Shown one piece after another: positions 4,934-51,269 of a DNA stretch of 61,137 nucleotides. The notes under the pieces are model-generated. The model was not told where the DNA came from. It saw nothing but the letters and a program-made list of their open reading frames with translations, and made no database searches. Position 1 is the first letter of the stretch; each line of letters starts with the position of its first letter. The position numbers and the translations under genes were made by a program. This DNA comes from a virus. The DNA is taken from positions 1-61,137 of IMG/VR virus record IMGVR_UViG_3300035183_000546. One strand, 5' to 3'.

Positions 4934-5614
4934 ATGAAAACTGAGATTTTAAGGCAATTTTTCGGAATACTCAAATTCGCAGCAGTGATTATTATACTTT
5001 TACTAGTATTTAAGCGTTTAGAGATCTCCGATAATGTACTCAACTCAGCTCTAAACAAACATACTGACAGCCTTATAGCCGCTATAGCTTACAAAATACC
5101 AAAAATACAGGGTTCAGAATCAAAACCTACTACAGTTATTCGTTATACTCCTCCAATTTCTACTAATACACTTAGTTTAGACTCTGTATTAAGGGTAGTA
5201 GACAGCTTAAATAAGCGTATAGCTGAGATAAACCCAGTGTTTATTACTTACGAACCTCAAAAACCCAAGCTTTTGTATGCTAAATTTACGGATAAATCTA
5301 TAGCGTTAGATTTACTTAGAGTCGATGGTAGTATTTATAGGGATAATTTTAACGTAGATTACACTAAATATGATTACGAATGGCAAGGAACTAATTTAGT
5401 GGCTTCTGGGCGCAAATACTCTTTGAAAACCCCTCAAAAAATTACTCTGTGGAGTCATCTTAAGTATGAAATTCTACAGGGTGAGCCTGAAGTTGGGTTA
5501 GAAGTTCGCTTAAATCTGTTTAAACATCTAGAATTAGCGGGTCAAACTAGTTTTTACTATACTAGCAAAGTAGAGCCTAAGATTGCTATTACGTTGAGTA
5601 AACAGCTAAAATAA
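4934..5614 (+). CDS. Membrane-anchored hypothetical protein
   Basis: A 226-residue protein with one N-terminal membrane segment (about residues 10-25, FGILKFAAVIIILLLVF), a Lys/Arg after it, a predicted helical stalk (45-95) and a beta-rich C-terminal part (110-226) ending ITLSKQLK. Such a layout (anchor, periplasmic helix, beta domain) would suit a spanin-like or envelope protein, and the endolysin is just upstream, but no diagnostic motif or lipobox is present. It touches the terminase gene (its stop TAATG overlaps the next ATG region). Function uncertain. Confidence 0.6.
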   Translation: MKTEILRQFFGILKFAAVIIILLLVFKRLEISDNVLNSALNKHTDSLIAAIAYKIPKIQGSESKPTTVIRYTPPISTNTLSLDSVLRVVDSLNKRIAEINPVFITYEPQKPKLLYAKFTDKSIALDLLRVDGSIYRDNFNVDYTKYDYEWQGTNLVASGRKYSLKTPQKITLWSHLKYEILQGEPEVGLEVRLNLFKHLELAGQTSFYYTSKVEPKIAITLSKQLK

Positions 5615-8103
5615 TGATTGTAGCACCTAGAGTTAAACGCGTAAAAACAGCGGTATTCACGCGTTATCTTTCGGAAAAGGAATTTGAGATATTAAAAGAA
5701 GTAAGGACTAATGTTTTTAGCTTTTTAAAGTTTATCTGGGTGATTCACCCTGTAAGGGGTAAAGTACCATTTGACCTATACCCCTTCCAAACTACTACGC
5801 TTTACGAATTTTTAAAAAATCGCTTTACTATTATTCTGAAATTTCGCCAAGCAGGATTAACTGAACTAATAGCTGCTTATTGTTTATGGCTAGCTATGTA
5901 CCAGTCTAATAAAAATATCATTATCCTGTCTATTAAAGAGCGTGTAGCTAAGAAATTACTTAAGCGGATAAAGTTTATGTACCGCAATTTACCAGATTAT
6001 TTAAAGGTACCCATTATTAATGGTCGGGGTGAAGAACTGGGTACTAGTACAGATTTAGAATTTGCTTCGGGATCTGTTATTACTTCTGTACCGACTACCG
6101 AAGATGTGGGGCGGTCTGAAGCTGCTTCATTGTTGGTCATAGATGAAGCTGCTATTATCAGATGGGCTGATCAAATTTGGGCGGCTATTTTCCCAACTAT
6201 ATCCACTGGTGGTTCTGCAATTGTTAATTCATGTGTTACTGGTGATACAGAGATTATCGGTAGAAATGGCAATTTTAAAATAGAGCAAGTTTGTCCCAAA
6301 GAATTTGGGGTACAAGATATAAGGTTTATGAACTTAGAAGTACTAACACATAAACTACAGTGGAAAAAAGCTATATATGGATTAAACAAGGGTAACCTAG
6401 AAACTTGGGAAATACAAAATGAATTTGGTGATACAATAAAATGTACTCCTGCTCATAAATTCTTAACCCCCTTTGGTTGGCGTTCTGCCGAAGAAATTGT
6501 AAATAAAAACCTTTATACAATTATTTATAATCATGGCATCAGTAAACTAGAAAAGCCACCCATAACTATACCCCCACAATATGAGGTATTAAAAGAAATA
6601 AGCGGTTTTCCAAATTACCTAATTTCTAACTTGGGTAAGGTATACTACAAGGAAAATAAAAAAGAAAAAGAAGCTAAGCCCAATAAATTAGGCTATAGGA
6701 GAATAAAATTGTGGTCAAGCGGTAAAAATAAAACTTTTCATATATCAAACTTAGTAGCTGAGCATTTTATTGGTAAAATACCCCTGGGTTATGTGGTAGA
6801 CCACATAAATTGTATAACTACAGATGATTATGTCACTAACCTTCAAATAATAACAAAAGCAGAAAATGCTAAAAGGGCTGCTAAATTTAGCCGGGGATTA
6901 AATTTGAATACCAATACTGGTAAAGGGGCTCCTGATCTTCAATTAGTTGGGTATATAAAATATCTCCATGAGCATAAAAACTATGAGCCCGATAAAATTA
7001 TAAGTAGGGTAGAAAGGAAATTTCATAAGCTAATAAGCAGGGCATATATAAGTAGGATAGTTAATAATAAGCGTAATACTAATGTTAAACTTTCTAAACT
7101 CTTCATTAAAAGAAAGTTTAGCGAAACAATTTACGATATAACGGTCGAAGGTGATGAATCCTACATTTCTAATTCTAACTATATATCCCATAACACTCCC
7201 TATGGTGCGGGTAATTGGTTTCATCGTATGTGGGTTGCAGCTTGTTCTGGAGGAAATAATTTTGTACCTATAAGGTTAAGGTGGCAAATGCACCCCGAAA
7301 GAGATCAGGCATGGTATAACGAAATGGCTGCTCAACTTGGTCCTAAACGTACAGCTCAAGAAATAGATGGGGATTTTTTAACTTCGGGATCATCTGTTTT
7401 CCATTTACCAGATATAAAAGCTATTGAAGATGAGCTTAGGGATTTAAGCTATGAAGAACCCCCAAGTATGGGCGGAAAACTTCTAACTTATAAAAGGCCT
7501 CGTCCGGGTATTCGTTATTTTTTGGGCGCGGATATTTCTACGGGTAGAGCTAAGGACTACAGTGCTTATTCTATTTTAGATGAAGAAGGGACAGAAGTAG
7601 AGTGTTTTAAAGCTAAAATACCACCGAATGAGTTTGCTGATTTAATTATGCGCCGGGGAAAACGTTACAATAATGCGTTGTTAGCACCAGAAACTAATGA
7701 TATAGGCTTAGCTGTAACCTCCCGAGTTCAAGCTCAAGGTTACCCCAGGCTTTACTATTCTAAAAAATTACTCAAAGCTAAAGGTAAGAGCAAATATGAA
7801 GAACAAGTGGTCCCCGGATGGCTTACTACTAGTAAAAACCGGCCAGTAATTATTAGTGAATTAGAAGAAGACCTGAGACTAGATAATATATATGTAACCA
7901 ATCCATTCTTTGTACAGGAAGCTTATACATTTATCTATGACGATAGGAATAAACCTATAGCTATGGGTAAAAATAGGACTTCCAAGGAAGCAAGCGATAA
8001 TTTAGCTTCAGAAACTTTTACGGATGATAGTATATTGGCTTTAGCCATTACTAATCATATACGTAAAACTAAATCAATAGGGCCTATTATTTTACCTCGC
8101 TAA
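5614..8103 (+). CDS. terL: Terminase large subunit containing an intein
   Basis: DNA-packaging motor ATPase/nuclease. The 829-residue precursor holds a 321-residue intein (207-527), leaving a typical 508-residue enzyme. Visible features are the adenine-side motif YPFQT (56-60), a P-loop variant RQAGLTEL (78-85) without the usual GK, and Walker B VIDE (175-178). The coupling-motif region IVNS|TPYG is split by the intein. RNase-H-fold nuclease residues are Asp640 in GADISTG, Glu693 in APETND and Asp804/805 in FTDDS. It precedes the portal by one base. No small subunit is recognisable in the window. Splicing is required for function because the insertion lies inside the ATPase domain. Confidence 0.95.
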   Translation: MIVAPRVKRVKTAVFTRYLSEKEFEILKEVRTNVFSFLKFIWVIHPVRGKVPFDLYPFQTTTLYEFLKNRFTIILKFRQAGLTELIAAYCLWLAMYQSNKNIIILSIKERVAKKLLKRIKFMYRNLPDYLKVPIINGRGEELGTSTDLEFASGSVITSVPTTEDVGRSEAASLLVIDEAAIIRWADQIWAAIFPTISTGGSAIVNSCVTGDTEIIGRNGNFKIEQVCPKEFGVQDIRFMNLEVLTHKLQWKKAIYGLNKGNLETWEIQNEFGDTIKCTPAHKFLTPFGWRSAEEIVNKNLYTIIYNHGISKLEKPPITIPPQYEVLKEISGFPNYLISNLGKVYYKENKKEKEAKPNKLGYRRIKLWSSGKNKTFHISNLVAEHFIGKIPLGYVVDHINCITTDDYVTNLQIITKAENAKRAAKFSRGLNLNTNTGKGAPDLQLVGYIKYLHEHKNYEPDKIISRVERKFHKLISRAYISRIVNNKRNTNVKLSKLFIKRKFSETIYDITVEGDESYISNSNYISHNTPYGAGNWFHRMWVAACSGGNNFVPIRLRWQMHPERDQAWYNEMAAQLGPKRTAQEIDGDFLTSGSSVFHLPDIKAIEDELRDLSYEEPPSMGGKLLTYKRPRPGIRYFLGADISTGRAKDYSAYSILDEEGTEVECFKAKIPPNEFADLIMRRGKRYNNALLAPETNDIGLAVTSRVQAQGYPRLYYSKKLLKAKGKSKYEEQVVPGWLTTSKNRPVIISELEEDLRLDNIYVTNPFFVQEAYTFIYDDRNKPIAMGKNRTSKEASDNLASETFTDDSILALAITNHIRKTKSIGPIILPR
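6232..7194 (+). mobile_element. Intein with NUMOD4/HNH homing endonuclease inside terL
   Basis: An in-frame 321-residue insertion. Block A starts with Cys (CVTGDTEIIG). Block B is KCTPAHKFLT, with the TxxH signature. Block F is TIYDITVEGDESYIS and block G is NYISHN, followed by Thr as the +1 extein residue. Between them sit a NUMOD4-like stretch (EISGFPNYLISNLGKVYY), an HNH core (LVAEHFIGKIPLGYVVDHIN ... TNLQIITKAENA) and a C-terminal helix-turn-helix-like part (about 445-490 of the precursor). All splice residues (Cys1, penultimate His, terminal Asn) are present, so splicing and homing are probably active. The boundaries were set from these motifs and the uninterrupted terminase flanks. Confidence 0.93.
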
Positions 8104-8104
8104 G

Positions 8105-9646
8105 ATGGCTAATTTTTTACTTCAACTTTACAATCGAGTTTTTAGGGATTCGAACACCCCTAAGACTATGCCCCCTCGTAAAATAGATCCCAAGGTGTTC
8201 CCCACTGAGCGTATCAGTGAAATGCCTAGAAGCTCAGCGGGTATACTTGAGCTTAAGGATAAGCTAAATATATTTAAACCCGAATTTAGCTTTGAAATGA
8301 TCCCTATAATTAGGAAGCTGGTCAAGCTAAACCCCAATTTGGGTCAAGCTTTAGATAATATAGTGCAGCTGGGTAATACCGGTCACGATATAGTGTTTGA
8401 TTCTGGGGTTAGTGTTAAGGAAGTAGATAATATGAATAGGTGGTTAAACGACCGTAAACATACGTGGTGTGAAGGACAGGCAGGAATGGACGGAGTAGTT
8501 AACCGGATGATCAGCCAATTAATGATTAGCGGGGCTACTGCTACAGAATGGGTACCCCGTAGAGATTTAAAGGGTATCCATTCAATTGTTTTTATTAATC
8601 CCGAAACTATACGGTGGGGTTTTGATAGGCGGTCACAAAAGTGGATCCCCTACCAGAAAGTTGAAAATTCTTTAAACAAAGAATTAATTAAGCTTAACCC
8701 TTTAACTTTTAGGTATTATGCGCTAAACGGGGATGAAGATACTCCCTATGGTTTTCCACCATATCTAGCAGCTTTAGAAGCTGTGTCTATGCAAATGACA
8801 ATGCTAGATAATATCAAGTTTATAGTGGGCCAGTTGGGTTTATTGGGTTTTTTACATGCTCTAATACAAAAACCTGAACAGCAAGCTAACGAAAGCATAT
8901 CTGCTTATACCCAAAGGTTAGAAAAATTCCTTACTGAAACTCGGGATAGTTTAGCTAAAGGTTTTAGACAGGGTATTTTAGTGGGCTATAAGGATGATAC
9001 TGAGTTTGACTTTCACAGTACTACCCGTAATTTAGACGGTATGTCTGAGCTCTACCAGCTAAATGAGCTTAATTTTGCTTCTGGCGCTAAAATGGATGCT
9101 GCAATGTGGGGACGGGGTTATGCTACTTCAGAAACCCAGATTAATGTAGTTTTTTCTAAGCTATTAGCCCAACTTAAAAATATACAGAATATCTTAAAGG
9201 CTAATTTAGAGTTTGGTTATACTTTGGAATTGAGGATGGCGGGTTACAATTTTAATAACCTTACAGTTGTTTTTAATCCTTCTACAGCTGTAGATAAGCT
9301 AAAAGAGCAACAAGCAGAAGAGTATAAGCTTCGTAATTCTCTTATACTTTACTATTCAGGTATAATCAGCTTAGATGAGTTTGCTCGGAGGCATGGTTAT
9401 GAAGCTCCGGATCAAAAAGATATAAGATATTTAGTAAATAATCCTATAACTCCAGAGGAGGCTGCTGAAAAAAGACGGAATCAAAAATCTAAAAGCGCTT
9501 CGGATACTCGCGATAAGCGTAAACGTAAATCTTCTACTAAGCAGTCAGGGGATTTAGCTGAATTATTAATGTTATTGTACGAGCCTAAAGAATCTATAAA
9601 GCAAAAACTCTCTAAATTTACGTCAGATGCCGTTGATGTCTATTAA
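8105..9646 (+). CDS. Portal protein
   Basis: A 513-residue protein positioned directly after terL and before the head protease, as portals are. The central part resembles DUF935/Mu gp29-type portals: IIRKLVKLNPNLGQALDNIV (helical clip/wing), then WVPRRDLKGIHSIVFINPET and RYYALNGDEDTPYGFPPYLA, typical of the portal stem region, followed by long helices. It would form the dodecameric ring through which DNA is packaged and to which the neck attaches. The C-terminus (about 455-490) is Lys/Arg/Ser-rich and low complexity. Its last 20 bases overlap the next gene. Confidence 0.88.
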   Translation: MANFLLQLYNRVFRDSNTPKTMPPRKIDPKVFPTERISEMPRSSAGILELKDKLNIFKPEFSFEMIPIIRKLVKLNPNLGQALDNIVQLGNTGHDIVFDSGVSVKEVDNMNRWLNDRKHTWCEGQAGMDGVVNRMISQLMISGATATEWVPRRDLKGIHSIVFINPETIRWGFDRRSQKWIPYQKVENSLNKELIKLNPLTFRYYALNGDEDTPYGFPPYLAALEAVSMQMTMLDNIKFIVGQLGLLGFLHALIQKPEQQANESISAYTQRLEKFLTETRDSLAKGFRQGILVGYKDDTEFDFHSTTRNLDGMSELYQLNELNFASGAKMDAAMWGRGYATSETQINVVFSKLLAQLKNIQNILKANLEFGYTLELRMAGYNFNNLTVVFNPSTAVDKLKEQQAEEYKLRNSLILYYSGIISLDEFARRHGYEAPDQKDIRYLVNNPITPEEAAEKRRNQKSKSASDTRDKRKRKSSTKQSGDLAELLMLLYEPKESIKQKLSKFTSDAVDVY

Positions 9647-10997
9647 GTTATTGGGTAACAGAGCCTTAGTGTTACCCCATATCAGTGATTCTGCTATACT
9701 TTTAAGAGAGGCTCCAGAAAACGAAAAGTTGGTTAAAAGTTTAGAGTTAGAAAAGCTGGGGCTTTTTGAAGTGGCTTCTCCCGATTTTAACCGTTTTTAC
9801 CCTAACACTACACCCCAGGATTTCGAACCCCGAGAAGAAGAGTTTGTAAAACCTGTATTCAGGATGCTTTCGGCTACAATAGTTAACCCTGCTAATCCTA
9901 TTGACTTTAGTAAACCGGGAGTATTAAAAGCTTCCATGGAAAAACTTTATGGCCAAACAGTTTATGCTAACCATGAAACTTCTGTGGGCAATGAATTAGG
10001 GGTGGTATCTCAGGTAGTATGGCAAAATAGTTATACCACTGATAAGGGTATAAAGATACCCGCGGGTATTAATGGTGTTTTATTAATTGATGGTAAGGCT
10101 AATCCTAAAATTGCTCGGGCTTTGAGCTTAACGCCCCCAGCTATACATTCCAATTCAGTATCCTTAACGTTCGAATGGGCTCAATCGCATCCCAAAATGT
10201 CCCAAGAAGAATTTTTTGCAAAGCTTGGTTCTAGGGATTCAGAGGGTAACTTAGTCCGGAGAATAGTCGTTCAAATTTTAGCCTATTACGAAACTTCTCT
10301 GGTACCACATGGAGCAGATCCTTTTGCACAGCAAATACGAGAAAGCCAGATAGTTAATCCTGTGTGGGCTAAAAACCGAGAAGTATTAACTGCTAATCAA
10401 AAACAGGCGAGTACTATGTTTTATTATGATTACACTAATATACTCGCTTTATCTAACAACTCAACACTATCCGAATTTACTGATGTAATAACAACTAATA
10501 TGCGGGATCATCTAATACTTATTGCTACTCTTTTAAACATTGAGTTAACCGACAAATCAGATGAAGTATTGGTCCAAGAAATTTTGAGCCAAACTAAAGA
10601 GCTTAAGCATAAATTAGCTATGCTGGACACACTTCAAGCTGAAAGCAACCAACTCAAGCAAGAAGTAGCCAGTTTGCAAGATAAACTAAATGCGCAACAG
10701 AGTTTAGTTGCACTTGGCGAAAAAACTAAAGCAGATTTAAGAATAGAAGCTAAGCGTATTTATACAATCCTGAAGGATGGTAAACCCGAAGCAACTATCT
10801 TAAGCATTTTGGATAATGCTGAAGTGGATACCCTAAAAGTTTTACATGCTGAGTACGCTGAGCAGCTTGAAGCTAAGTTTCCGCTGAGCTGCGGGGATTG
10901 TAAAAGCTTAAACGTATCTAGGGCTTCAGCTGTGGTAGGTGAGCCTTCTCCGACTACCACGATTAAGCGTAAAACTGTAAAGTCTGTTTTTGATTAA
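9627..10997 (+). CDS. Head maturation protease, probably fused to scaffold
   Basis: A 456-residue protein. The N-terminal part has a beta-rich protease-like domain with YANHETSVGNELG (His candidate near 115-120) and a segment YYETSLVPHGADPFA that matches the E-x-S-L-V...PA/GADP signature of S78/HK97-type prohead proteases. The C-terminal part (about 310-400) is a heptad-rich coiled coil (ELKHKLAMLDTLQAESNQLK and onward) like a scaffolding/assembly core, so protease and scaffold appear joined. ATGs at 9627 and 9636 are both possible starts. Lies between portal and decoration/capsid genes, which supports the assignment; catalytic residues are not certain. Confidence 0.75.
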   Translation: MPLMSIKLLGNRALVLPHISDSAILLREAPENEKLVKSLELEKLGLFEVASPDFNRFYPNTTPQDFEPREEEFVKPVFRMLSATIVNPANPIDFSKPGVLKASMEKLYGQTVYANHETSVGNELGVVSQVVWQNSYTTDKGIKIPAGINGVLLIDGKANPKIARALSLTPPAIHSNSVSLTFEWAQSHPKMSQEEFFAKLGSRDSEGNLVRRIVVQILAYYETSLVPHGADPFAQQIRESQIVNPVWAKNREVLTANQKQASTMFYYDYTNILALSNNSTLSEFTDVITTNMRDHLILIATLLNIELTDKSDEVLVQEILSQTKELKHKLAMLDTLQAESNQLKQEVASLQDKLNAQQSLVALGEKTKADLRIEAKRIYTILKDGKPEATILSILDNAEVDTLKVLHAEYAEQLEAKFPLSCGDCKSLNVSRASAVVGEPSPTTTIKRKTVKSVFD

Positions 10998-11001
10998 TCA
11001 G

Positions 11002-11025
11002 CCAGACTAAGTTAAGCCCTATAAA
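11002..11025 (+). promoter_or_regulatory. Leader motif upstream of capsid genes (possible late promoter)
   Basis: CCAGACTAA (11002-11010), six bases, then CCCTATAAAT (11017-11026), with TATAAATC resembling T4-type late promoters (TATAAATA). The same CCAGACTAA...CCCTAT arrangement occurs upstream of the sheath gene at 21532-21550. It lies about 55 bases before the decoration-protein ATG. Promoter function is inferred from position and repetition. Confidence 0.4.
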
Positions 11026-11077
11026 TCTTATCGCTGTTTTCTCTTAACCATAGATCTCATCTCTAAACATTTTTAAT

Positions 11078-11809
11078 ATGAGTGGAATTACCATAGTTAC
11101 CAATACTCCCAAGGCTGTAATCAGCAAACACGAGTCACACAAATTACATATTGCCCTTGAAGCCGAGGGCCGAAAAAGCTTACTCACTTTCAGTGCTGCA
11201 TTAGTAGCATCAAACACTATTAATGGTACTGTTAATGGTAATCCTATCCCACAGGTAACTTTTGCTGTAGATAGCGATTCTACAATGGCTGCGATTGCTG
11301 CGGCTATCGCATCAATGGCGGGAGTTAAATCAGCTAATGTGATTCAAGTTGCTGGTGGAACTTCAAATGATAGGGTAATCGAAGTTATCAGCGAGGATCC
11401 CAATACGATTGTATCACTTACTGGATGGGCTGTAACTAATGGTGCTAGTCAAGCTACTATAACCATTAGCGTAAGCGATAAGCGAATTAAATTGGGCATG
11501 CCCGTTCAAATTAATGCTTTGGGTAAACTAGAGCCACTTACTGCAGCTAATGCTGAGATAGATATGGTGGGTGTATGTATTCAAGAAGTAAGTGCAGGCG
11601 AAGAAGCTACCATTGCAGCTAGAGGTTATATGGTTGTGAAGGCTAAAGCTTCTGGAGCTGTTACTCCAGGTAAAGTTGCTTATGCTGGATATGATATGGG
11701 AGCAGGTAGGCCTTTAGTTACTAGTTCCTCAGTGACTGCTGCTAATCTATATGGTTGGGCGCTTGCAGCTGCAACTGCAGATGCCGAAGTAGCTGTAGTA
11801 GTTTGGTAA
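11078..11809 (+). CDS. Capsid decoration protein
   Basis: A 243-residue beta-rich protein immediately upstream of the major capsid protein. Its C-terminal half (about 140-243: GMPVQINALGKLEPL ... TIAARGYMVVKAKASGAV ... GWALAAATADAEV) resembles DUF2190-type head decoration proteins, which stabilise the HK97-fold shell. The segment 35-131 (LLTFSAALVASN ... DSDSTMAAIAAAIA ... GASQATITISV) is an extra domain that also occurs in the tail sheath protein of this phage. Expressed from a leader with a late-promoter-like motif; shares a terminator after the capsid gene. Confidence 0.78.
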   Translation: MSGITIVTNTPKAVISKHESHKLHIALEAEGRKSLLTFSAALVASNTINGTVNGNPIPQVTFAVDSDSTMAAIAAAIASMAGVKSANVIQVAGGTSNDRVIEVISEDPNTIVSLTGWAVTNGASQATITISVSDKRIKLGMPVQINALGKLEPLTAANAEIDMVGVCIQEVSAGEEATIAARGYMVVKAKASGAVTPGKVAYAGYDMGAGRPLVTSSSVTAANLYGWALAAATADAEVAVVVW

Positions 11810-11847
11810 GAATCGATTCATAAAAACTTTTAAAACACTCTTAACGT

Positions 11848-12945
11848 ATGGACCTTAAACGCTTTAAAGCAAGCACTATTAAAGACAGCTTATCTGAAAA
11901 GCTTACTGAAATATCTAGGTTACGCCAGCAGGGCGAACAAGATATTTCTCTAACTGAACTTGCTAGGGAAAATTTTAACATGAGCGTACCAGATTTGGTA
12001 GCTGATCTCGGTATCGAATTAGATAGAGACACAGTTAACAATATAGTAACTCATGCGGATTACCAAAGTATTCGTTGGGTAGTACCCGAAATTTTTAGGG
12101 AAGCTTTAGCTTTGGGCTTACGCAAAAGTCCCATTTGGCCTAATATAACTGCTACGGAGCAAAGCATAAAAGGCTTATCAATTATTTCTCCGTATGTAAA
12201 CATGAGTGATGCTTCACCCGAGAAGGTTAACGAGGCTGAAACTATTCCTTTGGGTTCTATTTCAGTGGGACAAAAGGCGGTAAGCATTTTTAAAATTGGT
12301 AAGGGTATTAAGATGAGCTACGAAGTACGTAATTACGTATCTTTAAACGTGCTATCTATTTTCTTCAGGGATTTTGGGGTTAAAATGGGGTATGCTATGG
12401 ATTCCCTGGCGATCAATACGCTAATCAATGGAGATCAACCCGATGGTTCAGAATCTGCTGCAGTAATTGGTATAACTACTCCGGGTACTTTTGCTTATAA
12501 AGATTTACTCCGGATTTGGATTAGAGCTTCTAGAATGGGGCGCAATTTTAATACTATCGTAGGAGGCGAAGCAGCTGCATTGATAACCTTAGATTTACCA
12601 GAATTTAAGAATAGAGCTACGGGCACTACTGAAGCTAACCTACGCTTACGTACCCCAGTACCTAATACTGCGGACTATTTCATCCATGGAAATATACCTG
12701 CTAATCAGCAACTTTTGATTGATCCTTCTGCGGCATTGATAAAATATAATGCCCAACCTCTGCTTATTGAATCAGAAAAGATAGTATCTAATCAAACTGA
12801 AGCTGCTTATGCTACTTTAACTACTGGCTTTTCAAAAGCGTTCAGAGATGCTAGCTTACTAGTAGATAGCTCTTTGAGTATATCCACTGCTGGCTTCCCG
12901 GCTTATATGGATGTAGATGGGCAGCTTAATGAGCTGATTGCTTAA
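11848..12945 (+). CDS. Major capsid protein (HK97 fold)
   Basis: A 365-residue protein placed after protease and decoration genes and before a very strong terminator, the usual position of the major capsid gene. The N-terminal 70 residues are helical and charged (delta-domain-like, probably removed by the protease). From residue 80 on it shows HK97-type features: FREALALGLRKSP, a long E-loop/spine-like region GKGIKMSYEVRNYVSLNVLS, MDSLAINTLINGDQ, and a C-terminal P-domain with LITLDLPEFKNR. Assembly partners are the portal and decoration protein. There is no additional Ig insertion. Confidence 0.85.
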   Translation: MDLKRFKASTIKDSLSEKLTEISRLRQQGEQDISLTELARENFNMSVPDLVADLGIELDRDTVNNIVTHADYQSIRWVVPEIFREALALGLRKSPIWPNITATEQSIKGLSIISPYVNMSDASPEKVNEAETIPLGSISVGQKAVSIFKIGKGIKMSYEVRNYVSLNVLSIFFRDFGVKMGYAMDSLAINTLINGDQPDGSESAAVIGITTPGTFAYKDLLRIWIRASRMGRNFNTIVGGEAAALITLDLPEFKNRATGTTEANLRLRTPVPNTADYFIHGNIPANQQLLIDPSAALIKYNAQPLLIESEKIVSNQTEAAYATLTTGFSKAFRDASLLVDSSLSISTAGFPAYMDVDGQLNELIA

Positions 12946-21566: not shown

Positions 21567-23429
21567 ATGCCCACTGCTGCTCGAGTATCTTTTGATATAC
21601 AAAATTTAACTTTTTCAGCTCCCAACCTATTAAAGGGTATTTCTTTTGTTATGGGGATAACAAAAAGAGGCCCCGTTGCAGATCCCGGTAAACTTATTTC
21701 TACCTGGGACCAGTTTGTAAGGGTGTATGGAGGCTATTTGCCCAATAGTAATTTTGCGTTACTTGCGGAAAGAGCTTTTAACTATGGAGCCCAGCTGAGA
21801 GTTAGCCGCGTAGTACATTATAATGATATTTCTGACCCCAATACAGCTACGGCAACTAAAGCTATCTTAAGCTCGCCTCTTATACTTACTTGGGATAGTG
21901 CTATGGTAGCGGGTAATGTTTTTGATTTCAATTTAGAAGGTGTAGCTAGTGCTCCAGTTAATTTTACTACTGACCATGATACTACTATGGCTTTGATAGC
22001 TGCTGAGTTATCCACTCATCCCCTAATAAGCTCTGCTCATGTAGTACAAGGACCCGCTGCAAATGATGATCTTACTTTAATCTTATTCCCTAAAAAAGAT
22101 CTAACACTTACTTATACTTTAAATGCTGTAATCACAGGGGGAGCCTCACAACCTTCTATTAATGTGACTGAGGCAGATGGAGTGTTAGATAGCAAAAATA
22201 ATAAGCTATTTACGCCTGTACTCAAATATCCGGGAGGAGATTACAATAAAGTATTTATAGCTATATCTAATGCTTCTAATGGTAATAGTGCATACTTTAA
22301 CTTAACCATATTTCATGAAGATGAAGCTGAATTAACTGAGTATTACCCTAATTTGAAAATTCCATCTACTCCTCCCAATATAGCTAATTCTACTTACTTA
22401 GATGAAGTAAAGTTAGCTTCTCAGCTGTTAGACTTTATATACGAAGATCTATCAAGTTTGAGCGGGCAATTGCGCCCTCTTAATGGGCTTTACTTTTTTG
22501 ATGGAGGCCATGATGGTAGTCCTGTAACCAGTACTGATTATATAGGTAATGCTTTGGGTAAAACTGGCTTTTTTGCTTTTGATGAATATGATGATGGTAT
22601 GCAAGTGGCTGCACCCGAAGTAACTGAAGCTTTAATACATGAAGCTGGAGCAGATTATGCAGCTAATCGTAAAGATTTATTGTACTTAGGCCATTTACCC
22701 AATTCTTTAAGTACTAGTATTGCTATAGCTGCCGCTCGTGATGCTATGAACATTGATACGCCCTATGCTATGCTTTTCGCGGGTGGTTTGAAAATATCTC
22801 ACCCTGTAACGGGGTTACCCATTGAGATTTCGGGTATGGGAGATATTTTGGGGATTATTGCACACAGCGATAATTTAGCAGGCGAGTGGTATGCTTTCGA
22901 TGGTATTAATCGGGGTACGGTGAGAAAAGCGCTGGGCGTAGTTAATAACTTTGGTACTCCGGCTAGGTATACTGAATTGAATGTTTTAGCAAACCATCAG
23001 GTAAATATGATGGTGCATAAAGATAAAAGGGTTTATCTAGCGGGTAACTATACAGCTACCATAAGTAATTCGCAAATGTCTTGGGCTGATACTATAAGGT
23101 TTATTATATTTTTACAAAAGAGTTTAAGGCCCATACTAGAAAAGTATTTAAGAGAGCCTTGCGATATTCCTACGTGGAAAGCTATTTTTGACGAGGTTAA
23201 CCCTTTCCTTACCAGCTTAGTTAAAGCTAGGGCTATGTTTGCCTATGTATGGAATGGGGATCAAAACATTAGCCGAATAGAAGACGTAAGGGTTAATACT
23301 TTGGCAGATGTTCAACAGGGTAAGTATAAAGCTAAGCTTTATATTAAGAAGACTCCGGCAATGAATGAGTTACTCGTACAAATTGTGCTGTCTCCTCTTT
23401 CTCTTGATTTTAACATTGTTACTGACTAA
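21567..23429 (+). CDS. Tail sheath protein
   Basis: A 620-residue contractile-tail sheath protein. Its N-terminal part fits the family (SFVMGITKRGPVADPGKLIS, VYGGYLPNSNFALLAERAFN). The central region has DGSPVTSTDYIGNALGKTGFF-type features and a chaperone-like stretch of alpha/beta repeats, and the C-terminus is canonical (FIIFLQKSLRPILEKYL ... FLTSLVKARAMFAYVWNG). Residues 105-205 form an insertion (LTWDSAMVAGNVFDFN ... DHDTTMALIAAELS ... GGASQPSINV) that matches a domain in the decoration protein. It is directly followed by the tube gene (two bases) in one unit behind a leader motif. Confidence 0.9.
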   Translation: MPTAARVSFDIQNLTFSAPNLLKGISFVMGITKRGPVADPGKLISTWDQFVRVYGGYLPNSNFALLAERAFNYGAQLRVSRVVHYNDISDPNTATATKAILSSPLILTWDSAMVAGNVFDFNLEGVASAPVNFTTDHDTTMALIAAELSTHPLISSAHVVQGPAANDDLTLILFPKKDLTLTYTLNAVITGGASQPSINVTEADGVLDSKNNKLFTPVLKYPGGDYNKVFIAISNASNGNSAYFNLTIFHEDEAELTEYYPNLKIPSTPPNIANSTYLDEVKLASQLLDFIYEDLSSLSGQLRPLNGLYFFDGGHDGSPVTSTDYIGNALGKTGFFAFDEYDDGMQVAAPEVTEALIHEAGADYAANRKDLLYLGHLPNSLSTSIAIAAARDAMNIDTPYAMLFAGGLKISHPVTGLPIEISGMGDILGIIAHSDNLAGEWYAFDGINRGTVRKALGVVNNFGTPARYTELNVLANHQVNMMVHKDKRVYLAGNYTATISNSQMSWADTIRFIIFLQKSLRPILEKYLREPCDIPTWKAIFDEVNPFLTSLVKARAMFAYVWNGDQNISRIEDVRVNTLADVQQGKYKAKLYIKKTPAMNELLVQIVLSPLSLDFNIVTD

Positions 23430-38218: not shown

Positions 38219-39616
38219 ATGGATGAAATACAGTACGAGTTTGACCTTGATTTTCAAGAAGCGCTATTACGCTTTATAGCCCAGGATAAGGAGGGTCCTC
38301 GTGCATTAAAGCTTTGTAACCCAAAACATTTTGGATTACCCGAATTGAGGTATATAGCTATAGCTTTTAGTAAGTATTATTCTAAAAATAAGCGTTTACC
38401 TCCGGGTAAAGTATTATTCCGCGAATACTTAAGGCAGCTATATTTAACTAGTCCATCTTTTTCTAAGCTTAAGGATTCTGAAAGAAAAGCTATTAATCAA
38501 GTAGTTGGCCGGATATATAATGGACCTGTAAAGGGTGGTGAGGATATATTGGAAGCCGTTACTAAGTTTAAAGCTTATGTACAACTACGGGAAGTATTAG
38601 AAAATGTAAACCTTAAGGATTTTAGTCAATATGAGAGTTTTGCTAAGAGTGTAGTAGAAGCCATACGTATAGATTTAGAACACTCCCAAGATTTGGGTAC
38701 TTTTTTAGTGCGCGATGCTCGTAAGCGTCAGATTGAAAGGCAGTTAAAACAAGAAGTATTCCCTACACCTTTTATGCAGATAAACAATTGGACTAATGCT
38801 GGAGGTTATACACGTGGGAGCTTGATTTGCGTACTTAGCCGGGAAAAAACTTTTAAGACGGGTTTTTTAGTCAATTTAGCTAAGGGTTATATGCGTATGA
38901 AAAAACGCATATTATATATTGACTTAGAGAATGGCCAGGATAGTATAGCCCTAAGGTTTGAACAAAGTTTACTTAAGATTACTAAAGCTCAGTTGTTATC
39001 TGGCGATTATGACGAGAAACTTTTAAAGCTTTTACGTAAATATAAGCGTTTGGGGGTAGAAGTAGACATTAAGCGTATGCCCGCATACACTACTACTGTA
39101 AACCATATTCAAAATTACATTGATGAGCAGTATCGGAATTACGGTATAAGGTATGATAATTTGATTATTGATTATGTGGGTATAATGGGATCACTAAGTG
39201 GTAAGAGAGATGATGATGAGCGGATCTCAGATGCGTATGTAGATGTAAAAAACTTAGTACTCCGTAATGGGTACGAATCTTGCTGGACAGCTCATCATGT
39301 TAATCGAAAGGCTTTTGTAAGGGAGGCTACTCAATTTCAAGCAGATGATACAGCTAAGTGTATAGATATTAATCGCCATGTAGATGCTTTGTTGGGTATT
39401 AATGCTAACGATGAGGAAAAGGCAGGTAATGTAGCTCGCTTAGAAGTAATAGAGCAACGGGATGGTTTACCCAGAGCTAGAATGCTATTCTGGCTGAATA
39501 TAGCTCAACAGCATATTAAAGAATTTACTAAAGTTGAATTAGAACGCTATAGACATGCTGTAGAAAACTTAAGTGAGCAAGAGCGTATAGATAAAGGTAA
39601 GAACAAAGATTTATAA
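38219..39616 (+). CDS. DnaB-like replicative helicase (gp41-like)
   Basis: A 465-residue RecA-fold helicase opening the replication block. Residues 1-150 are a helical N-terminal domain. The P-loop region (about 205-216) reads CVLSREKTFKTGFLVNLA, a variant in which the canonical GKT is FKT and Gly residues are missing. It is followed by ILYIDLENGQD, a Walker B NLIIDYVGIMG (about 313-323), and a C-terminal sensor region (CWTAHHVNRKAF, LLGINANDEEKAG). Likely replication-fork helicase working with the downstream primase. Start ATG has no SD. Confidence 0.78.
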   Translation: MDEIQYEFDLDFQEALLRFIAQDKEGPRALKLCNPKHFGLPELRYIAIAFSKYYSKNKRLPPGKVLFREYLRQLYLTSPSFSKLKDSERKAINQVVGRIYNGPVKGGEDILEAVTKFKAYVQLREVLENVNLKDFSQYESFAKSVVEAIRIDLEHSQDLGTFLVRDARKRQIERQLKQEVFPTPFMQINNWTNAGGYTRGSLICVLSREKTFKTGFLVNLAKGYMRMKKRILYIDLENGQDSIALRFEQSLLKITKAQLLSGDYDEKLLKLLRKYKRLGVEVDIKRMPAYTTTVNHIQNYIDEQYRNYGIRYDNLIIDYVGIMGSLSGKRDDDERISDAYVDVKNLVLRNGYESCWTAHHVNRKAFVREATQFQADDTAKCIDINRHVDALLGINANDEEKAGNVARLEVIEQRDGLPRARMLFWLNIAQQHIKEFTKVELERYRHAVENLSEQERIDKGKNKDL

Positions 39617-44940: not shown

Positions 44941-45352
44941 AGTAGCTAGGCTTTTAGCTAAACGGAGTGTATGTAGAAGGTTACAAGTGGGTGCAGTAAT
45001 AGTTGCCGAAAAGAGGATAGTTTCTACGGGTTATAATGGACCTCCTAAAGGATACCACCACTGTGAAAATTGTGATTTACAAGGTGCTTGTATAGAATCT
45101 ATTCACGCGGAAGCTAATGCTATAGCATTTGCTGCTAGTCAGGGCATAGCTACTAAAAACACTATACTTTATTGTACGCATTCACCTTGCGTACAGTGTG
45201 CAAGGCTAATTATTCAAGCGGGAATAATTAAAGTTTATTATTTAGAACAGTACCGAGATAATCAAGGGTTATTATTACTTAATTCGTTAGGAGTAAAAAC
45301 CCAGATGTATGTAAATGAAGGTTATGAAAAAAGTTTACAGGGTAATATCTAA
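44900..45352 (+). CDS. dCMP deaminase
   Basis: A 150-residue zinc deaminase converting dCMP to dUMP. Catalytic site IHAEANA (His69, Glu71) and SPCVQC (Cys97, Cys100). An additional Cys group (HHCENC, GAC) around 54-64 probably forms the second zinc site seen in phage dCMP deaminases. GAVIV and STGYNGPPKGYHHC are family hallmarks. It overlaps the preceding gene by 41 bases and the polymerase by 38 bases, indicating a compact co-transcribed set. Confidence 0.9.
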   Translation: MDSLRISRNQLYIEVARLLAKRSVCRRLQVGAVIVAEKRIVSTGYNGPPKGYHHCENCDLQGACIESIHAEANAIAFAASQGIATKNTILYCTHSPCVQCARLIIQAGIIKVYYLEQYRDNQGLLLLNSLGVKTQMYVNEGYEKSLQGNI

Positions 45353-47471
45353 ATTTAACGAAATACCTAAACTTATAGAGGATTGCATAAGTACTGGTTA
45401 TTGTTGTTATGATTTTGAAACTTCGGGTAAGTATTATAGTCCCGATAGTTATCCTACTTCCATAGCTATAGCTTATCAACCGGGTTTTGTACATGTAATC
45501 CCTCTGGCTCACCCTGCATCCCCCTTTAAAGAAGTTTATCTAAAAATCTTAAACCAAATAGGGCATAAGCTTATAGAGAATGAAGAGGTAGTAAAGATTG
45601 CTCATAATGCCAAGTATGAAATGCAGTGGTTTTTAAGATATGGGTTTATTCACAGAGGGAGAGTATTTTGTACTATGTTAGCTAAATACTTACTGGATGA
45701 AGTAAGGCCTCATGATCTTAAATCAATTACTGCTAAATTTTACCCCGATAGCTTGGGTTATGATGATGAGGTAAATATATTAGCTAAGAAGTATGGGTGG
45801 GGTAACATCCCTTTAAAAAAGTTGACTAAGTATAACGCTTTAGATGTGTATTATACATTTAAACTAGCTATAAGGTTTGAAGATAAACTCATTAAAGCGG
45901 GGTTGTACAGCCTTTACCGAAATCTATATATGCAATGTACCCATGTTATAGCGGAATCAGAGTTTGTGGGTATAAAAGTAGATACTAGTTATTTAGAAAG
46001 AATTTCTGCAGAATATGCTGATAAACTAGTAGAAATTGAAACTAGCATTACCCGTAATAAGATCCTGAGGCGTTATATACGTAAGTATAGAGAGCAGCAA
46101 TTTAGCGATCTTATAGCAAAAGCTAGAGTAGAAATAGAGTATTTAAGGCGTAGAGGTCAAGAAAGGCAAGCTTTAAATAGGGAAAAGAAAATAAGCTTAT
46201 GGTTAGCAGGTAAGGCTACTACTCAAAAAGAGGCAAAAATACTACAAGATTTTAACCTTAGATCTGTACCTCAGTTAGTGAATTTACTTTATGAATCTAA
46301 GTATGGTTTTAAATTTCCCATAATAGACTATACTTGGGATAATAAGCTAAATAAGCCCAGTAATAAGCCTTCTACTTCAGAGGCTACATTGTTGAAATTA
46401 CAGTCCAAGGATAAACATGGTTTTATTGAAAAGTTACTAAAGCATCGAGAAATATCTAAATTACACAGTACCTATATGGAAGGGCTAAAACCCTTAGTAC
46501 AAGAAGATGGTTATATTCATGGTAACTTTAATATAGCTGGTACAGTAACTGGGCGTTATAGCTCTACTGAACCCAACTTGCAAAATATCCCTCGCAGCAT
46601 TACTGCTTATGATATAAAGAAAATGTTTGTACCCCCAGAAGGTATGCTTTTAGTAGAAGTAGATTATAGCCAAGCAGAATTACGGGTAGTAGCTGAAATA
46701 GCTAATGATAAAGCTATGATTGATATTTTTAAACGTAACTACAATATACATGTAGCTACGGCGTGTAAAATGAACGGGGGTATACAGCTATATGATGAAG
46801 TAAAAGCTATACTAAAAGATGAAAATCATCCCAAACATGAGTATTGGGAAAAAGCTAAAAAACGCGGTAAAATTCTGAATTTTTCTATCCTTTACCAACA
46901 AGGAGCTGAAGCTACAGCTGAAGCTTTAGGTTGTTCTGTAGAAGAGGGTAAAGAATTTCAGCGTAAGTGGTTTAAACAATTTCCCGGTGTAGCTAAGTGG
47001 ATAGAAAAACAGAAAAGAATAGCTTACCAACAAGGATTCGTAAAAACTTTATTTGGTTCTAAACGCAGATTACCGGATATATATTCTGTAAATCGTGGTA
47101 CTAGGGCAGAAGCAGAAAGGCAAAGTATTAATTCTCCAATTCAGGGTACTTGTGCTTTATTTACTAATTTTGCTACAGTAGAAATACGTAAGGCTAAACT
47201 AAGGGGTGAACTACCATGGTACTTACATCAGCCTTATACGGTGCATGATTCTATAGGCTTTTATGTTAAGCCAGAAGATGTACACTGGGTAGTAGCTTTT
47301 ATACTTAATGTAGCTCAAAACTTACCCACAGATAAATACTTTGGTTTTAAAATGAAAAAAGTAAGTATGAAAGTGAGCGCTGAAGTGGGTAAAACATGGG
47401 CTGATCTTAAAGATTATAACCCTGAAGAAAATTATGCGAGTTGGCTAAGTGAAGCTACTCCTGAAAAGTAA
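45315..47471 (+). CDS. DNA polymerase, family A
   Basis: A 718-residue replicative polymerase. The 3'-5' exonuclease domain starts with YDFETSGK (Asp33/Glu35). Polymerase motif A is VEVDYSQAELR (Asp450), motif B is RGKILNFSILYQQG (around 517-530) and motif C is VHDSIGF (His644, Asp645). Insertions of helical sequence lie between the exonuclease and polymerase domains (about 250-390). A second ATG at 45324 is an alternative start. It overlaps the dCMP deaminase by 38 bases. Works with the gp32-like SSB and the helicase/primase of this window. Confidence 0.95.
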   Translation: MKVMKKVYRVISKFNEIPKLIEDCISTGYCCYDFETSGKYYSPDSYPTSIAIAYQPGFVHVIPLAHPASPFKEVYLKILNQIGHKLIENEEVVKIAHNAKYEMQWFLRYGFIHRGRVFCTMLAKYLLDEVRPHDLKSITAKFYPDSLGYDDEVNILAKKYGWGNIPLKKLTKYNALDVYYTFKLAIRFEDKLIKAGLYSLYRNLYMQCTHVIAESEFVGIKVDTSYLERISAEYADKLVEIETSITRNKILRRYIRKYREQQFSDLIAKARVEIEYLRRRGQERQALNREKKISLWLAGKATTQKEAKILQDFNLRSVPQLVNLLYESKYGFKFPIIDYTWDNKLNKPSNKPSTSEATLLKLQSKDKHGFIEKLLKHREISKLHSTYMEGLKPLVQEDGYIHGNFNIAGTVTGRYSSTEPNLQNIPRSITAYDIKKMFVPPEGMLLVEVDYSQAELRVVAEIANDKAMIDIFKRNYNIHVATACKMNGGIQLYDEVKAILKDENHPKHEYWEKAKKRGKILNFSILYQQGAEATAEALGCSVEEGKEFQRKWFKQFPGVAKWIEKQKRIAYQQGFVKTLFGSKRRLPDIYSVNRGTRAEAERQSINSPIQGTCALFTNFATVEIRKAKLRGELPWYLHQPYTVHDSIGFYVKPEDVHWVVAFILNVAQNLPTDKYFGFKMKKVSMKVSAEVGKTWADLKDYNPEENYASWLSEATPEK

Positions 47472-49422: not shown

Positions 49423-50154
49423 ATGGAAAAATCATCATCTAAGACAAAGCCTAAAAACAAATCTTTAAAAGAAAGGCTAAGAGAAAGGCGAAAAGCCTTA
49501 GCTAAGGGCGAAGGAAATTCTGCATTCTTTTTCCCTAAGGAGGGTACAACTAGGTACCGTATTCTTCCCGTGGATAGCGAACAAGATTTTGCTATTGAGT
49601 TAGTCCATTTTTACTTGGGTCCTGAAATTAAGGGCGTAATTTCTCCGGCTACTTTTGGAGAACCCTGTGCTATAATGGATGCTTACAATAAATTAAAAAA
49701 TTCTAAGCACGAAGATGATAGGGAAAAAGCTAGAGATTTAAAGCCTAAGAAAAAAATAGCTTTACCTGCTATACGGTATATAGATGAGCGGGGAAAACAA
49801 GTGGATAAAGAAGCTGGAGTAAGACTTTTGCTAATCGGTACCAAAGTATATGCTGAGTTACTCGATCTTTACCTGGACGATGAAGCGGGGGATTTTACTG
49901 ATCCAGTAAGCGGTTACGATATTAAGATTAAACGCAGTGGTTCTGGTATGACTGACACTGAGTATAAAGTAATACCCTGTAAACCCACTCCTTTAGCTAA
50001 GGAGTATGCTAAACAGCATTACGATCCAGAAGCTATGCTTAGAGAAGTTATGACTTCTTACGAAGAAACAGTTGATAAGATAGAAGAATTTCTAGGGGGA
50101 TCGCTGGAAGATACTAAAGTAACTAAAAAGAAAAAGAAGAAAAAAGTTTCATGA
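49423..50154 (+). CDS. Single-stranded DNA-binding protein, gp32-like
   Basis: A 243-residue protein. N-terminal basic arm (SLKERLRERRKALAKGEG), then the OB-fold core with SAFFFPKEGTTRYRILPVDS, PAIRYIDERG and KIKRSGSGMTDTEYKVIP, matching T4 gp32-type ssDNA-binding proteins. Unlike T4 gp32, whose C-terminus is acidic, this one has an acidic patch (VDKIEEFLGG) and then ends in a Lys run (KVTKKKKKKKVS). Preceded by an AT-rich segment TTATAAAATACAAATAAATA. Immediately upstream of RecA, with four-base overlap. Confidence 0.75.
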   Translation: MEKSSSKTKPKNKSLKERLRERRKALAKGEGNSAFFFPKEGTTRYRILPVDSEQDFAIELVHFYLGPEIKGVISPATFGEPCAIMDAYNKLKNSKHEDDREKARDLKPKKKIALPAIRYIDERGKQVDKEAGVRLLLIGTKVYAELLDLYLDDEAGDFTDPVSGYDIKIKRSGSGMTDTEYKVIPCKPTPLAKEYAKQHYDPEAMLREVMTSYEETVDKIEEFLGGSLEDTKVTKKKKKKKVS

Positions 50155-51269
50155 GCCGTAAAAGTAGAGTATTAAAAATACTGTCCCCCGCGAAAATAGC
50201 TAAAAAATACCCTACTTCTGGCTTAGCTAGTGATATTGCTGTAGAAGCAGAATCGTGTTTAAGAATACCTACTCGTATAATAGCACTTAACTACCAACTA
50301 AATGGGGGTTTACCTTGGGGTAAAATACTTGAAGAATTTGGTGAAGAATCCACTGGTAAAAGTTTACTAGCCGCAGATTTTGGGTATTGCACTATAGCTT
50401 TAGGTGGCGAAGTTATTTGGGCTGATGCTGAAAATTCTTTTGAAGCTAGCTGGGCTATTAAGAATGGTTTAGATCTGAGTAAAATACACCTGCTAACTCA
50501 AGAAAACTCAATTGAAGTTATATCCGATTGGGTGGCTGACACAGCTGTTTCAATACGCAGTAGATTAGTTAAAAATGAACCAATACTTTTCGTATTAGAT
50601 TCTACTGCGGCTATTGAGACCATCGATAACATAGGCGCTTCACAAGTAGATATGAAAGCGCAGATGGGTAATCGAGCTAAAAAGATTTATGAATTTTTCA
50701 GAATGCGTAGTACTATGTTTAATCACCTGGGCGTAAGTTGCATATTTATCAATCAGCTAAGGCGAAAGATAGGTGTTAGCCAATGGGAAGATCCAGATAC
50801 TACGCCAGGGGGTGCAGCTGCAAGGTTTTACGCACACCAACGGTTAAAATTATCTAGGGGTAAACAGATAAAAGAAAAGATACGAGGAGTAGAAGTAAAA
50901 GTAGGTCAAAATGTATTTTTTAAAACTGCTAAAGATAAAACAGGACCTCCAAGATCAACCACTCAAGGTAGAGTGTATTTTTTAGAAAACAAAAATAGAC
51001 CAGTAGGTTTTGATAGATATTTCATGTTACCCGAATTGCTGGTTATTAAAAATGTTCTAGATCGTAAGAAAGGTAATTCTAGGTATTACTTGGATGGTAA
51101 GATGTTGGCTAACGGGGAAGAAGCTATGCTTAAATTATTAGCAGAAGATGATAAATTACGCCAATTACTGATTAAAAAATCCCGTATAAATACGATTAGT
51201 AGGACTAGAGCTAAGTTAGCCAAAATTTCTGAAAATCTATACAGTATCAATAATTACGAAGAATCATGA
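50151..51269 (+). CDS. RecA/UvsX-like recombinase
   Basis: A 372-residue strand-exchange protein. Walker A GEESTGKS (64-71), Walker B FVLDSTAAIE (about 146-155), and the RecA signature CIFINQLRRKIGVSQ with a following loop L2 region (TPGGAAARFYAHQRLKL). Functions with the gp32-like SSB and UvsW-like helicase in recombination-dependent replication. The C-terminal 70 residues are basic and helical. Coupled to both neighbours by ATGA overlaps. Confidence 0.92.
   Translation: MSRKSRVLKILSPAKIAKKYPTSGLASDIAVEAESCLRIPTRIIALNYQLNGGLPWGKILEEFGEESTGKSLLAADFGYCTIALGGEVIWADAENSFEASWAIKNGLDLSKIHLLTQENSIEVISDWVADTAVSIRSRLVKNEPILFVLDSTAAIETIDNIGASQVDMKAQMGNRAKKIYEFFRMRSTMFNHLGVSCIFINQLRRKIGVSQWEDPDTTPGGAAARFYAHQRLKLSRGKQIKEKIRGVEVKVGQNVFFKTAKDKTGPPRSTTQGRVYFLENKNRPVGFDRYFMLPELLVIKNVLDRKKGNSRYYLDGKMLANGEEAMLKLLAEDDKLRQLLIKKSRINTISRTRAKLAKISENLYSINNYEES

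Follow-up and report, generated by a model that had tools for sequence, protein, structure and literature searches.

Inteins within the large terminase subunit (TerL) are known from mycobacteriophages, in which seven terminase insertion sites have been described, including TerL6-f in the coupling motif; five representatives were shown to splice and two to have cleavage activity, both of the latter with LAGLIDADG endonucleases (Kelley et al. 2016, PMC5050341). Inteins are also typical in the TerL of uncultured gut phages, the delta crAss-like phages, where the example given is of the Hint-Hop type (Yutin et al. 2021, PMC7886860). Going by its title as cited in PMC5050341, the work of Dalgaard et al. 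1997 reported an HNH intein. None of the literature searched, the coverage of which left many subscription papers outside, described a TerL intein of the NUMOD4-HNH type.

The DNA analysed here, a stretch of 61,137 nucleotides from a virus (IMG/VR record IMGVR_UViG_3300035183_000546, referred to below as the window), is that of an uncultured contractile-tailed phage. Genes for a portal, head protease, major head protein, tail sheath, DnaB-like helicase, PolA-type polymerase and UvsX-like recombinase were found within positions 8105-12945, 21567-23429, 38219-39616, 45315-47471 and 50151-51269. The TerL gene is a single uninterrupted open frame of 829 aa (5614-8103) with an in-frame insert of 321 aa (6232-7194) between exteins of 206 and 302 aa, which together make 508 aa. 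The locus is organized as follows.

5614..6231, + strand: TerL N-extein, 206 aa, ATPase domain to motif III, ending in IVNS; gap 0 to the C-extein in 77 relatives; aligned with T4 gp17
6232..7194, + strand: intein, 321 aa, with intein start and end models at the borders, an AlphaFold model (pLDDT 93) and Foldseek matches
6232..6234, + strand: Cys1, the first splice nucleophile (residue 207, TGT), invariant in 16 homologues
6445..6456, + strand: block B, TPAH, intein residues 72-75, of which T72 and H75 do not vary among 16 homologues
6592..6714, + strand: NUMOD4, intein residues 121-161 (PF07463, 23.4 bits, exactly the cut-off)
6748..6870, + strand: HNH_3 core, intein residues 173-213 (E 1.6e-11, insert alone)
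6799-6804, 6838-6840 and 6865-6867, + strand: HNH residues D190-H191, N203 and N212, which align with D74-H75, N87 and N96 of I-HmuI
6937..7062, + strand: three-helix HTH-like unit, intein residues 236-277, helices in the AlphaFold model
7084..7194, + strand: C-terminal splicing half (TIGR01443), ending in His320-Asn321 at 7189-7194
7192..7194, + strand: terminal Asn, residue 527 of the open reading frame (AAC), Asn321 of the intein, invariant in 16 homologues
7195..7197, + strand: Thr+1, the first C-extein residue; Thr at +1 in all TerL and PolA members of the lineage examined
7195..8103, + strand: TerL C-extein, 302 aa, beginning with TPYG; remaining ATPase and nuclease domain, stop codon included

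Both ends of the insert were recognized by intein profiles, TIGR01445 (intein_Nterm) matching residues 207-285 with an E-value of 8e-8 and TIGR01443 (intein_Cterm) matching residues 506-528 with an E-value of 1e-4, each above its curated cut-off. Pfam detected HNH_3 and Intein_splicing in TerL, and with the insert alone as query the latter family (PF14890) reached 38.9 bits against a cut-off of 35.8. The insert carries the residues of a class 1 intein (Cys1, TPAH, His-Asn and Thr+1), which are conserved among homologues; the penultimate His was present in most of the 16 homologues aligned and replaced by Gln, Arg, Lys or Ser in some. The initial annotation had assigned the insert these borders, this length and these splice residues. 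It was correct to the codon, and independent models placed both ends at these borders. The NUMOD4 and HNH core that it had named was likewise supported, by the HNH_3 match and by a NUMOD4 score lying at the cut-off.

An AlphaFold model of the intein built with 16 homologues had a mean pLDDT of 93 and a pTM of 0.76. Foldseek matched this model best to I-HmuI among PDB entries (1u3e, E 7e-9) and then to many intein structures, and the best PDB match by sequence was likewise I-HmuI (E 2e-11). The predicted architecture is that of a Hint splicing fold surrounding an I-HmuI-type endonuclease, with the active-site residues in register with those of I-HmuI; the HNH residues are preserved in the window's copy and throughout the full-length homologues that were aligned. 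I-HmuI itself is a separate homing endonuclease of 174 residues that lies outside any intein, unlike the window's copy. Helices 236-249, 253-264 and 270-277 of the model make up a helix-turn-helix-like unit, for which profiles of HTH families matched some homologues and hardly matched the window's copy. Going by the layout of I-HmuI, we take these C-terminal helices to be the DNA-binding part. The initial annotation had described an extra helix-turn-helix; the three helices are there in the model, but the unit looks like what endonucleases of the I-HmuI type ordinarily have at the C-terminus for DNA binding.

Alignment of intein-free relatives with T4 gp17 placed the insertion site between the residues equivalent to Thr286 and Thr287 of IIITTTPNG (T4 numbering counted from the 3ezk alignment), of which we take TTT to be the terminase coupling motif. 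This agrees with the proposed location of the junction IVNS/TPYG (the slash marks the insertion point) in the ATPase coupling motif. Mutations in the T4 coupling motif abolish packaging (PMC9958956). It is reasonable to infer from this position, as had been suggested, that unspliced TerL would be inactive and that splicing would be needed for TerL function. The TerL6-f site, located by setting Athena gp6 against ChrisnMich gp4, which has no intein, reads IILIQ/TRWH and corresponds by motif to IVNS/TPYG, being in the coupling motif and likewise before Thr. The Athena protein is a Terminase_6 from a different phage group, and its intein of 254 aa has trace similarity to that of the window (E 0.013). 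Judged by these comparisons, the window's intein shares the TerL6-f site and falls outside the TerL6-f family. The statement that inteins at conserved terminase sites are known is thereby borne out for mycobacteriophage TerL6-f.

Among 95 related TerL contigs, 77 lacked the insert, and in these the extein matches adjoined exactly at NS/TP with a gap of 0; a full-length homologue occupied the same site in 15 contigs, the window counted. Because 77 relatives join the flanks at the same codon boundary and 15 contigs hold a full-length homologue, the insert is not a product of chance. Alignment of the intein-free flanks to other terminases had been proposed as a check and gave these codon-exact empty sites. 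Homologous sequence in related terminases had been proposed as a refutation, which was mis-stated: some of them do have it, as the same intein, and in most the site is cleanly empty. Inteins are over-represented in the 95-contig set, since it includes loci found by the intein query itself; in a scan based on TerL, six of the best 80 loci were filled. All complete homologues keep Cys1, the final Asn and Thr+1. One contig (L029:3501-4106) held at NS/TP a mini-intein of 202 aa without NUMOD4-HNH, in which part of the HTH region was kept. Homologous inteins were also observed nine codons (27 bp) upstream, at TLS/TGG, in L026 (3501-4526) and L103 (5044-6078), with NS/TP intact, and L027 contained an additional partial copy. 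Block A of the L103 intein is degenerate (CAIYETPIF), with Cys1 and the C-terminal end kept. A single-sequence search of viral contigs with the intein gave no matches, and an alignment-based search gave 26 loci. Of these, L030-L041 were set aside, because their similarity covers no more than part of the N-terminal splicing half; most of them lie in other terminases, polymerases or helicases.

The occurrence of such inteins was not restricted to TerL. Homologous HNH inteins were found in PolA at HG/T(T/V)(S/T)GR, the first slash being the insertion point (L014:4001-4990, L015:4001-4984 and L028:1851-2840). These inteins, the first two from phages DP SC_2_H4_2017 and DP SC_6_H4_2017, are homologous to that of the window from end to end, in Hint and HNH, at about 32% identity; they lie in DNA polymerase I and end in Ser-Asn, whereas the window's intein ends in His-Asn. 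The PolA site of the window's own polymerase (45315-47471) is empty and reads GTVTGRYSS, and phage MT121964 has a PolA intein and an empty TerL. The top matches in BFVD, a collection of predicted viral structures, were two proteins labelled "large terminase" from uncultured sources (1170 and 847 aa) and one labelled "DNA polymerase", and members of the lineage seem to have been deposited without an intein label. The best viral-structure match was A0A8S5V9W7, the large terminase of 1170 aa, and this length, taken alone, would fit TerL with two inteins. The only NUMOD4-HNH match in the window record was the intein itself. Free-standing NUMOD4-HNH genes were seen in the records behind L008, L002, L013 and L042, at four places in the L008 record and some with internal stops; they may be where the intein endonuclease came from, or decayed relatives of it. 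Terminase inteins at the corresponding spot were already known, and what is notable here is the endonuclease type and the presence of one lineage at two TerL sites and in PolA. We suggest tentatively, with the balance tilting slightly against it, that one HNH intein lineage may have moved among at least three sites in two genes (TerL NS/TP, TerL LS/TGG 27 bp upstream and PolA HG/T(T/V)(S/T)GR), always before Thr and with its I-HmuI-type endonuclease re-targeted each time, and that neighbouring inteins would thus compete for the same stretch of terL.

The distribution of the intein among relatives was patchy, with at least 12 changes of presence or absence on a maximum-likelihood extein tree, and its inheritance was incongruent with that of TerL. 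The window's intein grouped with that of L016 in the intein tree (support 99/100), and the two are more alike (65.6% protein identity) than their exteins (57.5%); in most of the other pairs listed the exteins were the more alike. The TerL of L016 grouped with that of L008 (SH-aLRT 98), whose intein is distantly related. A tree that forced the L016 and L008 inteins together was disfavoured, not rejected (p-AU 0.06), and one that forced L016 with the L008, L011 and L124 inteins was rejected (p 0.00014). Because of the 12 or more changes on the TerL tree, and because the nearest relative of the window's intein sits in a distant TerL, the lineage looks mobile. Two near-identical TerLs, L082 (the L026 contig) and L047, differed by the presence and absence of the sister intein at the upstream TLS/TGG site, with DNA identities over the first 100 bases of 99% upstream and 96% downstream of that site. 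For the window's copy there were no two near-identical genomes of which one had the intein and the other lacked it, and the closest TerL with an empty site, L042, was 64% identical. No clear gradient of co-conversion around the site was detected in the pairs tried. The NUMOD4-HNH segments of L011 and L124 differed by five synonymous and no non-synonymous changes; in the dN/dS comparisons of the window's own pairs, synonymous sites were saturated or nearly so. The GC content of the intein was 0.319 compared with 0.371 and 0.385 in the exteins, and GC3 was 0.255 compared with 0.286 and 0.255, differences too slight to argue from for a foreign origin. Considered together, the distribution, the trees and the substitutions support active homing, short of proof. 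An active mobile element controlling packaging had been proposed; the mobile part of that proposal agrees with the changes and the incongruent trees, while control of packaging is unsupported except for the need to splice, as we saw no sign of conditional splicing.

These observations also bear on whether the intein might splice with an endonuclease that no longer homes, being kept by vertical descent and occasional recombination of whole terL. This would agree with the L029 mini-intein, an example of loss of the endonuclease part, and with the correlation of intein and extein identities across pairs (r 0.68). The HNH residues are nonetheless intact in every full-length copy aligned, gain or loss has recurred at the exact codon, and the window and L016 inteins resemble each other more than their exteins do, and we regard this explanation as rather unlikely. 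A regulatory switch, in which controlled splicing would time or condition packaging, draws on the location in an essential motif alone, the one in which T4 mutations abolish packaging. It is very improbable in our view, as most relatives package without the intein (77 empty sites), selfish mobility accounts for the patchy distribution and the attached endonuclease, and nothing regulatory was identified. One might also envisage a group I intron, or misassembly that put a free-standing HNH gene into terL or fused the two, in view of the free-standing NUMOD4-HNH genes of related phages and the HNH introns known in terminase genes (PMC7344957). Such a reading is already contradicted by the two Hint halves that flank the HNH and the splice residues that mark the exact borders, by the frame that is open throughout and by the same codon-exact insertion in many independent contigs, and we give it almost no credence; Rfam had no match in 5500-8200 except a sub-threshold U7.

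The locus is, in our judgement, very probably a class 1 intein (Cys1...Asn, Thr+1) interrupting a T4-like large terminase at its ATPase coupling motif, with an I-HmuI-type NUMOD4-HNH-HTH homing endonuclease, that would splice itself out and home into terL. The 829-aa precursor would splice to give the 508-aa TerL and a free intein of 321 aa. In a co-infection, the intein would cut or nick the terL of a related phage that lacks it, within the conserved DNA that surrounds NS/TP, and recombinational repair would then copy it into the cut terL. TerL is a phage marker gene, in which unrecognised inteins lead to wrong lengths, domain calls and trees. In this lineage L026 and L047 form a natural pair, one having the intein and the other lacking it, and L029 supplies a mini form; these may be used to learn how HNH inteins, compared with the commoner LAGLIDADG ones, home and change sites.
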